The translations under genes and the position numbers were made by a program. This document shows, piece by piece, positions 2,616-5,277 of a stretch of DNA of 5,451 nucleotides (position 1 is the first letter of the stretch; each line of letters begins with the position of its first letter). Source of the stretch: Lachnospiraceae bacterium (GTDB taxonomy: Bacteria > Bacillota_A > Clostridia > Lachnospirales > Lachnospiraceae); contig JAFZJK010000144.1 in NCBI GenBank assembly GCA_017553965.1, positions 1 through 5,451 of the forward strand. Reading direction: 5' to 3'. The notes beneath the pieces were generated by a model. It was not told the DNA's origin and searched no databases. It was given only the letters and a program-made list of their open reading frames with translations.

Positions 2616-3416
2616 TCAGAGTGCAACTGCCTTTGAAATGTCAATTACATATTGATCAGCAGGCATGAGCAACAGCCTGACAGGAACTGTTTTTTCGAAG
2701 CCGCTCATCTCATTCTGAACCGAACGGCTTTTCGAATTGTAGCCAGCAAGCAAAAATAGAATCTCGTGCTTATTCTGATTCAACTGTGGTACCGGATTGC
2801 TCAACAGTCCGAGAGAGGATTTGCAGTCCGCGATCTGCTGGACCGAATCATATAATTCCTTTTTCAGCTCACTGTCGGTCAAAACCCTGCAAATGTCTCT
2901 GTAATGCTTGGCAAGACCGGCACTGCCTGTGATTGCACCAAGACCATATTTGTTCTCTACGACTATCAGCCGGTCGTCCATTACCATCAGCATATCGAGG
3001 CGCATCAAATTCTTCACTTGATACTCAATGTCAATAATGGAAGCATTGTGAACCAAAAGCTGATGCTGATACTCCCGCTCCCGCTTCGGATGCACGGAGA
3101 ACCATTTTTGCATCTCGTCTATCAATAAATCAAAATGCTTGGCAAAATCAGGCGCGGAGGAAGAATCAAGTTTTGTAATCCGTTCAAAATTGGACTCGTC
3201 GCCTTTGTTCAGACAGTATCGAGAATCAAACTGAAATGTGTATCCGTTTCTCTTTTGCATGATTTTCAGCAGATTTCCGCCACGGTAATAAATATTGATG
3301 TATCCTCCTCTAATTTCAAGCGCGAGCTCTGTCTGTCGTTCTTTTACTTGACGCAAAAAGAAGGACAGTTCACCATTTGTCAGGTCAGATACGAAACGCG
3401 CATTGATGCCTCTCAT
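2616..3416 (-). CDS. PD-(D/E)XK nuclease-like protein (266 aa)
   Basis: The central core is R139-L-D141-M-L-M-V, a short turn, then R149-L-I-V-V-E154-N-K156-Y-G. This fits the D...E-x-K metal-binding signature of PD-(D/E)XK nucleases. An acidic helix upstream (E114, E116 in KREREYQHQL) and the following LAKHYRDI helix (168-175) are typical surroundings. The N-terminal third has LEIRGGYINIYYRGGNLLKI (33-52), likely a beta-rich region of unknown role. The protein would be cytoplasmic and act on nucleic acid, but no specificity can be read. I chose the ATG at 3416 because GGAGG (3424-3428) sits 7 bases before it. An upstream ATG at 3590 would add 58 residues that are low in recognisable structure and overlap a better-looking 28-codon ORF in another frame. 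It ends 20 bp before the UDG-like gene, which suggests joint function. Confidence 0.75.
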   Translation of the reverse strand: MRGINARFVSDLTNGELSFFLRQVKERQTELALEIRGGYINIYYRGGNLLKIMQKRNGYTFQFDSRYCLNKGDESNFERITKLDSSSAPDFAKHFDLLIDEMQKWFSVHPKREREYQHQLLVHNASIIDIEYQVKNLMRLDMLMVMDDRLIVVENKYGLGAITGSAGLAKHYRDICRVLTDSELKKELYDSVQQIADCKSSLGLLSNPVPQLNQNKHEILFLLAGYNSKSRSVQNEMSGFEKTVPVRLLLMPADQYVIDISKAVAL

Positions 3417-3418
3417 AT

Positions 3419-3505
3419 TTATGCCTCCAGCTTCTGTTGCAGGTCCTCCTCTAAAGCCTGTGCCTCTTTCTGGCACGCATGACTCCACTCTTGGTTTCTT
3501 TTCAT
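3419..3505 (-). CDS. Possible 28-aa helical peptide ORF just before the nuclease-like gene
   Basis: The frame from ATG 3505 to TAA 3419 reads a charged, alanine- and glutamine-rich helix ending ALEEDLQQKLEA. It stops 2 bases before the nuclease-like ATG, and the nuclease's ribosome site lies inside it, as in translational coupling. No good Shine-Dalgarno precedes its own ATG, and the frame is also open upstream to about 3570. It may therefore be the C-terminal end of a broken gene rather than a free peptide. I do not recognise it. Confidence 0.35.
   Translation of the reverse strand: MKRNQEWSHACQKEAQALEEDLQQKLEA
3424..3428 (-). promoter_or_regulatory. Ribosome binding site that sets the nuclease-like start
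   Basis: GGAGG on the minus strand lies 7 bases before the ATG at 3416. No comparable site precedes the alternative ATG at 3590, which directly follows the TAG of the RlmD-tail-like fragment. A second purine-rich stretch (GAGGAGG, 3445-3451) lies further upstream. Confidence 0.75.
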
Positions 3506-3529
3506 CCGGGCCGATCGGATCCAGTGCGG

Positions 3530-3555
3530 CTTTCGGCATGTCAAAGTGCCGAAAG
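3530..3555. repeat. Perfect 9-bp inverted repeat
   Basis: CTTTCGGCA (3530-3538) and TGCCGAAAG (3547-3555) pair across an 8-base loop. A T-rich stretch (GTTTTTC) begins about 5 bases later on the plus strand, but no plus-strand gene lies upstream. Possible roles are an mRNA hairpin in the nuclease leader, a protein-binding palindrome, or part of a decayed mobile-element end. Confidence 0.55.
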
Positions 3556-3590
3556 TATTCGTTTTTCAGGCCTTTTCTGCCCTTGTGCAT

Positions 3591-4050: not shown

Positions 4051-5277
4051 TTATCCGGAGCTGTTGAGAATCCTCGACTCCCACTCTTGATGGGCATCAT
4101 GCCATCTTTCACTATGCGACCCCAACGCACCGATCTGGCGCGGATGTGCTAGCGGAAGGACTTCGATCTTTCTTCCGCTTATTATTGATTCGGAACGGTT
4201 CCCATACCCGATGAGATCTGTGTATTCCCGCAGGCTTTTATACGGTACATCCGAAACACGATTCAGGTATTGTGCGATCGGAATGTCTCCAAGCAAAACA
4301 AGCAAAGAAGCCTTCGATCTGAAAAGCTCCTCGCTTATCTCTTCAGCACGCTTTTTATCACAGAACGATGACGGCCTTGCAGGGATCGTGACTTCATTAA
4401 GACCATATCTTTTGATCAGAGGATCATATTTCTCTTTAATCACCTTGACCTGTCCCGGGTTCAGCCTTGTTTCAGGAAGGCAATCGCAAAGCCAGGCCTC
4501 TTCCCGGGTAAATCCCAGCGGCGCAAGTATATGCTCATCAAGCACCTTTGCTGAAGGGCCATTGAGATTCCGACCGGCCGGAACAAGTTTACCCAGTTCA
4601 ACAGGAATACTGATCCTGTCAATTATTGTTTTTGCCTCTTCAGGATCACCATCCCAGAAGATCCGTGGTTCGCTGGCGACCGCCAGCGCCTGGCAGACAG
4701 TCTCTCCGTTGCACATCCATCTTGCATGAACAGCACTTGCATATACTCCCAGAACAAACACTTCTTTCGGTGTCTGATCCTGCTGCACCAACGGTGTTAC
4801 ATACTCGCCAAACGGATACCGATAAGTCTTTTCAGGCAGACCCGGGTCGTTCACATACACCATCGGTATATAGCGGATCCCATCTTCTTCCTGAATTCCA
4901 TCCGTTTGTACAAAGCCCAGTCTTTTATAGATGTCCGCCGCGAATACAGATGAATGTACTTTGATTTCTGCTGCCTTATTATCTTCGAGCATTGCTCTCC
5001 ATAGACTGCGTCCGACACCCTTGCGATGATACTCCCCGTCAACGAAGAACAGGGCAATGTGATTCCCTCCATTTCTCGTTGCTATGATCCCGATCAGCCT
5101 GTCATCATCAAAAGAGCCATAGGCAGTCAGCATGTCTAGATACTCTTCTGAGTGGATCGCATTCCAGAATGCCTGTTTTCCGGCTTCCGGATAACCGATC
5201 GCCTCATAATCACAAAACACCTTCCACACTAACGGAAGCGCATTATTCAATTCGTTTCTATCCAGTAATCTGATCAT
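4051..5277 (-). CDS. Fusion protein: N-terminal GNAT acetyltransferase + C-terminal UDG-superfamily-like domain (408 aa)
   Basis: Residues 1 to about 140 form a GNAT domain: strand LIGIIATRNGGNHIALFFVDGEY (61-83), acetyl-CoA loop H84-R-K-G-V-G89-R-S-L, and the closing S109-S-V-F-A-A-D-I-Y-K-R-L-G-F-V. A short linker (about 141-149) leads to a UDG-like domain (150-408). That domain has G177-V-Y-A-S-A-V-H, W262-L-C-D-C-L-P-E-T-R, LLVLLGDIP (325-333) and L374-P-L-A-H-P-R-Q-I-G-A-L-G. It aligns without gaps to the stand-alone protein at 1825-2595 at about 73% identity (hand count). Both substrates are unknown; a modified base or nucleoside handled by both domains is a possibility, not a demonstration. 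The ATG at 5277 has AGAGGTGA at 5287-5294, 9 bases upstream. It lies 36 bp after another acetyltransferase and 9 bp before the 89-residue gene, suggesting an operon. No frameshift is seen at the junction, so the fusion appears real. Confidence 0.85.
   Translation of the reverse strand: MIRLLDRNELNNALPLVWKVFCDYEAIGYPEAGKQAFWNAIHSEEYLDMLTAYGSFDDDRLIGIIATRNGGNHIALFFVDGEYHRKGVGRSLWRAMLEDNKAAEIKVHSSVFAADIYKRLGFVQTDGIQEEDGIRYIPMVYVNDPGLPEKTYRYPFGEYVTPLVQQDQTPKEVFVLGVYASAVHARWMCNGETVCQALAVASEPRIFWDGDPEEAKTIIDRISIPVELGKLVPAGRNLNGPSAKVLDEHILAPLGFTREEAWLCDCLPETRLNPGQVKVIKEKYDPLIKRYGLNEVTIPARPSSFCDKKRAEEISEELFRSKASLLVLLGDIPIAQYLNRVSDVPYKSLREYTDLIGYGNRSESIISGRKIEVLPLAHPRQIGALGSHSERWHDAHQEWESRILNSSG

Follow-up and report, generated by a model that had tools for sequence, protein, structure and literature searches.

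The window analysed here is the whole 5,451-nucleotide stretch of contig JAFZJK010000144.1 from a Lachnospiraceae bacterium (assembly GCA_017553965.1). It carries a gene in which a Gcn5-related N-acetyltransferase (GNAT) domain is joined through a short linker to a domain resembling uracil-DNA glycosylase (UDG), together with a stand-alone copy of the UDG-like domain and a separate GNAT gene (Table 1). We find that this is a real, rare fusion of two recognizable domains and that its C-terminal domain belongs to an uncharacterized clade of the UDG superfamily; the UDG-like family, and not the fusion, is the interesting part.

Table 1. Features of the window, with the basis of each assignment; residue numbers are those of the fused protein unless stated otherwise.
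Feature	Positions	Strand	Basis and remarks
Fused gene: GNAT, linker and UDG-like domain, 408 codons	4051–5277	minus	Open reading frame (ORF) call, Pfam match, self-comparison; recurs in P0001 and P0002
GNAT domain, residues 1–143, Acetyltransf_10, HRKGVG loop at residues 84–89	4849–5277	minus	Pfam E 7.4e-25; fold matches
Linker, residues 144–150	4828–4848	minus	Predicted local distance difference test score (pLDDT) <50 in the fused model
UDG-like domain, residues 151–408 plus stop; starts where the stand-alone protein starts	4051–4827	minus	Alignment and fold
Codon for Asp265 (Asp116 in the stand-alone copy), aligned with the Asn by which family-4 UDG reads uracil	4483–4485	minus	Alignment register
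Gene for the UDG-like domain alone, 256 aa; shares 74% identity with the fused domain and groups in a different clade of the tree	1825–2595	minus	ORF call, alignment, tree
Separate GNAT gene, Acetyltransf_3	819–1373	minus	Pfam; kin to the fused GNAT at superfamily level only

As a sequence-only reading of the window had proposed, the fused gene is one uninterrupted frame whose N-terminal half is a GNAT with an acetyl-CoA loop. The Pfam match to Acetyltransf_10 (E 7.4e-25) spans residues 29–140, the predicted model has the GNAT fold and matches GNAT structures such as 5jph, and the loop has its G-x-G core at residues 87–89, with a His at the first loop position. Residues 152–404 are 74% identical to the stand-alone 256-aa protein, and comparison of the two copies places the join just past the GNAT end and just ahead of the UDG-like start; the fused model has a predicted template modelling score of 0.63 and a flexible linker. 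The two UDG-like copies have 66% of their bases in common and agree at 79, 86 and 34% of first, second and third codon positions, respectively, which indicates strong protein-level constraint on both. P0001 (25 member sequences, 2 contigs) and P0002 (403 aa) share this architecture. The former differs from the window protein by 4 residues and is 97% identical to it in the GNAT part, and the latter is 83% identical in the GNAT and 89% in the UDG-like half, so the fusion is no assembly accident.

That the C-terminal domain has a UDG fold is near certain. The sequence-only reading had staked itself on the fold of residues 150–408, and structure prediction and structure search bore it out, returning the alpha/beta fold of UDGs; motif 2 is of the HP type, with His229-Pro230 (stand-alone numbering, as below) present in 51 of 51 rows of our family alignment, A3. 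The window copy scores below the gathering cut-off of the Pfam UDG profile PF03167 (18.9 vs 24.3 bits), and at E 0.1 this profile matches 36 of the 51 family members, the best at 2.1e-05. Compared with family-4 UDG from Sulfolobus tokodaii (4zbx/4zby) and with UdgX, the UDG-like domain is 11–17% identical and about 60 residues longer, and it carries an Asp where those proteins have the uracil-reading Asn. Motif A reads GVYASAVHARW in the UDG-like family, in contrast to GEAPG in family-4 UDG and GE[AG]PG in all family-4 rows of A4, an alignment with family-4 UDGs from host genomes. Family-4 UDGs hold an iron-sulphur cluster by four Cys ligands, whereas A3 has one invariant Cys (115) and two nearly invariant ones (46 and 157). 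The domain thus departs from family 4 on motif A, on the Cys ligands and on the Asn at the uracil-reading position.

The changed base-reading residue hints at bases other than uracil. The register LGFTRSDAWLCD / VGIAREDVYIAN aligns Asp116 with the uracil-reading Asn of family-4 UDGs (A4, 6 rows), and in the predicted structure Asp116 sits at the end of strand 112–116, as expected for a reading residue. Asp116, His229, Asn90, Glu54 and Tyr30 are invariant in all 51 rows of A3, and Asn124 is present in 50. Catalysis in family 4 has been proposed to run through the motif-2 His and the motif-3 Asn (PMC5387724), of which His229 corresponds to the former and Asn124 possibly to the latter, though slightly off in the alignment. 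In E. coli UDG, the N123D change lets the enzyme excise cytosine and is toxic on its own, and the N123D:L191A double mutant retains some uracil activity (PMC3989344). We think it probable that the UDG-like domain is an active glycosylase, and possible, though on balance doubtful, by analogy with the engineered enzyme, that its specificity is of the cytosine type.

The UDG-like family is large: of 4990 candidates, 2974 belong to it at E 0.001 or better, and the 120 of these that were listed are mostly unnamed. Scanning species genomes with a pattern gave 133 confirmed relatives, the best 80 of which were taken for analysis of their genome loci. The hosts are mostly rumen and gut bacteria (Prevotella, other Bacteroidales and Clostridia), with fewer among Coriobacteriia, Erysipelotrichaceae and Anaerovibrio/Veillonellaceae. 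Within the family of one Prevotella genome the gene occurs in 10 of 301 genomes, the centre genome counted, and in a clostridial class sample in 1 of 391, which is the centre genome itself. In 14 of 15 host genomes chosen from the 80 loci, a UDG of the ordinary kind (family 1 or 4) also passes the Pfam cut-off. Such patchy occurrence in genomes that already have ordinary UDGs points to an accessory role, for example in phage defence, more than to housekeeping repair.

A tblastn search of 50,697 phage records gave no match at E 1e-5, and plasmids gave four Variovorax matches at 43%. Two IMG/VR matches (L002 and L003) are chance matches in long phage frames, at loci where the family profile finds nothing, and a phage origin was rejected. 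So was decay of the family in Prevotella, the TAA in matches L136 and L137 lying at the ordinary C-terminal end. For neighbouring genes we chose 42 of the 80 loci and dropped 3 whose anchor lay outside the called gene set, which left 142 ORFs within two genes of the anchor at 39 loci, after removal of 3 neighbours of >700 aa. No conserved operon partner emerged: the commonest neighbour cluster, which we read as WYL regulators, occurs in 9 loci at scattered offsets, and Pfam finds WYL in 4 of the 142 ORFs. A PADLOC scan of the neighbours, with no background control, returned WYL, PDC-S01, mad2, RmrA, Vsr and others, each in 1–4 of 142, from which we take no conclusion.

With the anti-phage glycosylases Brig1 and Brig3 the UDG-like family has in common its relation to the UDG superfamily and its accessory distribution. 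Brig1 requires for immunity a Glu147 at its base-reading site (PMC11078745), and Brig3 requires Asp127 to excise 5-hydroxymethylcytosine (PMC13160076). An acidic residue thus stands at the base-reading position in Brig1 and in the UDG-like family, and would do so in Brig3 if, as we infer, Asp127 marks its base-reading site. A sequence search of the PDB with A2 listed nothing up to E 10, no Brig entry is among the structure matches listed, and the literature searched contained no defence test of the UDG-like family.

The reading we favour, which we hold tentatively at just short of an even chance, is that of an Asp-reading cytosine-type glycosylase with an accessory role, to which a GNAT is tethered, probably without coupling. 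The data themselves show the reading frame, its domains and fold, which residues are invariant, how rare the fusion is and how promiscuous the GNAT; catalysis, cytosine-type specificity, the role in defence and the lack of coupling are what we infer here. On this reading the domain is most likely a DNA glycosylase of the monofunctional type. It retains the His of motif 2 (His229; His378 in the fusion), but motif A is rebuilt and the Asn that reads the base is replaced by an Asp (116; 265 in the fusion). By analogy with N123D UDG, Brig3 and Brig1, its target would be a base bearing an exocyclic amino group, probably cytosine in a modified form, which it would flip out and so create an abasic site.

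Several points weigh against this reading. The match of Asp to Asn rests on register and topology; the profile-profile comparison with family 4 is statistically weak (hhalign probability 4%, E 0.0099), and in it Asn124 misses the motif-3 Asn by one or two positions. With the motif-A signature lost, catalysis may be lost too. The local motif residues of Brig3 (Asn50, Pro51, Ser52 and Glu55), compared by published description only, differ from those of the UDG-like family; PADLOC gives no match for the UDG-like protein itself, and its neighbourhoods, again with no background control, hold no fixed partner. Moreover, the uracil activity left in N123D:L191A implies that an Asp broadens the choice to cytosine and does not exclude uracil, for which reason the odds of cytosine-type specificity are put a little lower and an extra UDG is counted among the rivals.

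According to that rival, which we consider somewhat unlikely, the domain is a repair glycosylase for uracil or another deaminated base with an unusual active site. The UDG fold would suit it, an Asp at the reading position still permits uracil (PMC3989344), and one family member, P0120, is called a uracil-DNA glycosylase by the Joint Genome Institute; however, ordinary UDGs are already present in nearly all host genomes examined, the distribution is sporadic and the Asp is found in every row of A3. It is also unlikely that the domain is a non-catalytic binder of DNA or nucleotides in which the fold was kept and base excision lost. The replacement of the GEAPG-type motif A and the score of the window copy under the Pfam UDG cut-off would be expected of such a protein, but the five invariant residues and the nearly invariant Asn124 fit an active site, and the constraint between the two copies is strong.

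As for the N-terminal half, the GNAT is for now best regarded as a passenger. It would be an independent acetyl-CoA enzyme on a flexible tether. The GNAT subfamily to which it belongs is promiscuous, and the fusion is rare and specific to a lineage, probably with no chemical coupling of the two halves. The sequence-only reading had argued that fusion and adjacency support each other, and had called for a genome survey of the same fusion and of UDG-like/GNAT neighbours. We rejected the argument from adjacency, as the neighbour in the window belongs to a different GNAT family (Acetyltransf_3 vs Acetyltransf_10) and few GNATs lie near UDG-like genes. The anchor ORFs of the 80 loci (198–298 aa; 78 complete and 2, L067 and L082, cut by contig ends) include no GNAT fusion, and a GNAT lies within two genes in at least 2 of 39 loci, a lower bound drawn from the first 25 of 118 matched Pfam families, with Acetyltransf_1 in 2 of the 142 neighbour ORFs (L024 and L065) and GNAT_acetyltran in 2. 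An iterated search of lower sensitivity, run on every called ORF at the loci, turned up three GNATs that are not in the window, at offsets -5, +1 and +2. Each of two Clostridia genomes has a GNAT downstream of its UDG-like gene, by one and two genes, respectively (L024:5790-6557 and L065:6498-7274), and these GNATs are related to each other (67% identical; A5).

The fused-type GNAT is found in 22 of the 391 genomes of the clostridial class sample, as against 1 for the UDG-like gene, and that one, the centre genome, lacks the fused-type GNAT (E 1e-20). Its 23 matches comprise 16 stand-alone GNATs and 7 in frames of >300 aa, which on a reading of the sequences carry a second GNAT (five), an AadS-like part (one) or a QueG-like part (one); the UDG-like gene is in none of the fetched GNAT stretches (about 3.4 kb or less). 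Among 35 candidates of 224–714 aa that bear the fused-type GNAT, a set from which stand-alone GNATs are excluded by design, the partner is HEAT-like in 21, a metallo-beta-lactamase in 8, UDG-like in 2 (P0001 and P0002) and other in 4. The proteins with HEAT-like or metallo-beta-lactamase partners (P0121, P0144 and others) belong to the same GNAT subfamily (47–74% identical) and differ in the partner. As the fused GNAT joins these two partners more often, the fusion is a weak argument for a link. P0121–P0143 and P0150 represent a recurrent two-domain protein of about 283 aa with a GNAT and a HEAT-like part; in P0136 the HEAT-like part comes first.

A protein of reverse order, P0018 (398 aa; one 1645-base contig), begins with the UDG-like domain and ends in a GNAT of another kind, with a marginal match to the window GNAT (24% over 51 residues, E 0.049). 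It stands apart from the GNAT-UDG clade in the tree (2 changes), so, provided that P0018 is genuine, the UDG-like family has become fused to a GNAT on two occasions. That the partner would be a GNAT in each of two independent fusions somewhat favours a functional link and to that extent weighs against the GNAT as a passenger. Pieces of the P0018-type GNAT also occur in the otherwise unrelated proteins P0187 and P0188, the latter looking like a phage portal protein; both are probably assembly chimeras. Our literature search found nothing relevant on DNA glycosylases in fusion with a GNAT or an acetyltransferase, and in the main text of a review entitled 'Noncatalytic Domains in DNA Glycosylases' (PMC9266487) a word search found none of acetyltransferase, GNAT, fused or fusion.

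Functional coupling would mean that the GNAT acetylates a base, a nucleotide, a DNA-bound protein or its own glycosylase domain, coupled to recognition or removal of a modified base. The kept order in P0001 and P0002, the P0018 fusion and the finding that a GNAT is the extra domain in each of the 3 two-domain proteins among the 120 homologues listed for the UDG-like half speak for it; the more frequent HEAT-like, metallo-beta-lactamase and other partners, the lack of fusions at the 80 loci, the few GNAT neighbours, and the single contig, marginal match and chimeric company of P0018 speak against it, and we regard it as quite improbable. Of the earlier interpretation, the UDG fold stands and the co-occurrence of the halves does not; its functional link keeps the conserved fusion and P0018 in its favour. 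That the fusion is an assembly or frame artefact is very improbable: chimeras do occur with similar GNAT pieces (P0187 and P0188), but the architecture is kept in P0001 and P0002 and the fusion proteins form one clade (Shimodaira–Hasegawa-like approximate likelihood ratio test, SH-aLRT, 99).

In a quick family tree, with support <80 on 87 of 195 inner branches, the stand-alone copy falls in a 7-row clade (SH-aLRT 95) and the fused copy elsewhere, in the 3-row fusion clade. The separate clades suggest that the two copies were acquired or diverged separately; on the strength of these clades and of the 66% of bases in common, we rejected an origin of the fusion by duplication of the neighbouring stand-alone gene. 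Between both UDG-like genes lies a gene for a 324-aa protein (2616–3590, minus strand) with a sub-threshold match to NERD, a nuclease-related domain (E 0.027). The separate GNAT gene is probably outside the system. The 451 bases between it and the stand-alone UDG-like gene (1374–1824), without a convincing gene, contain a degenerate repeat, with 53-base copies at 1428 and 1490 that are 72% alike, which we read as several AGGGTTG...TTTAGATGT units and which may be left over from a mobile element.

The fusion as such is rare and may have little significance, and in genomes of this kind fusion to a GNAT tells little about function. If the Asp acts as in the engineered UDG, the UDG-like family would be a large family of natural cytosine-type base glycosylases. 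Since a glycosylase acting on plain cytosine reportedly poisons E. coli (PMC3989344), the family would need to be selective, and this would direct attention to modified cytosines and hence to phages whose DNA is modified. A bolder version, which we consider a long shot, is a natural modified-cytosine glycosylase forming a new base-excision branch of phage defence in rumen Bacteroidales and Clostridia, with the GNAT here acetylating an amino-bearing hypermodified base or the glycosylase, so that both acts would take place on one polypeptide. If the cytosine-type reading is true, the family may offer a tool to map modified cytosines.
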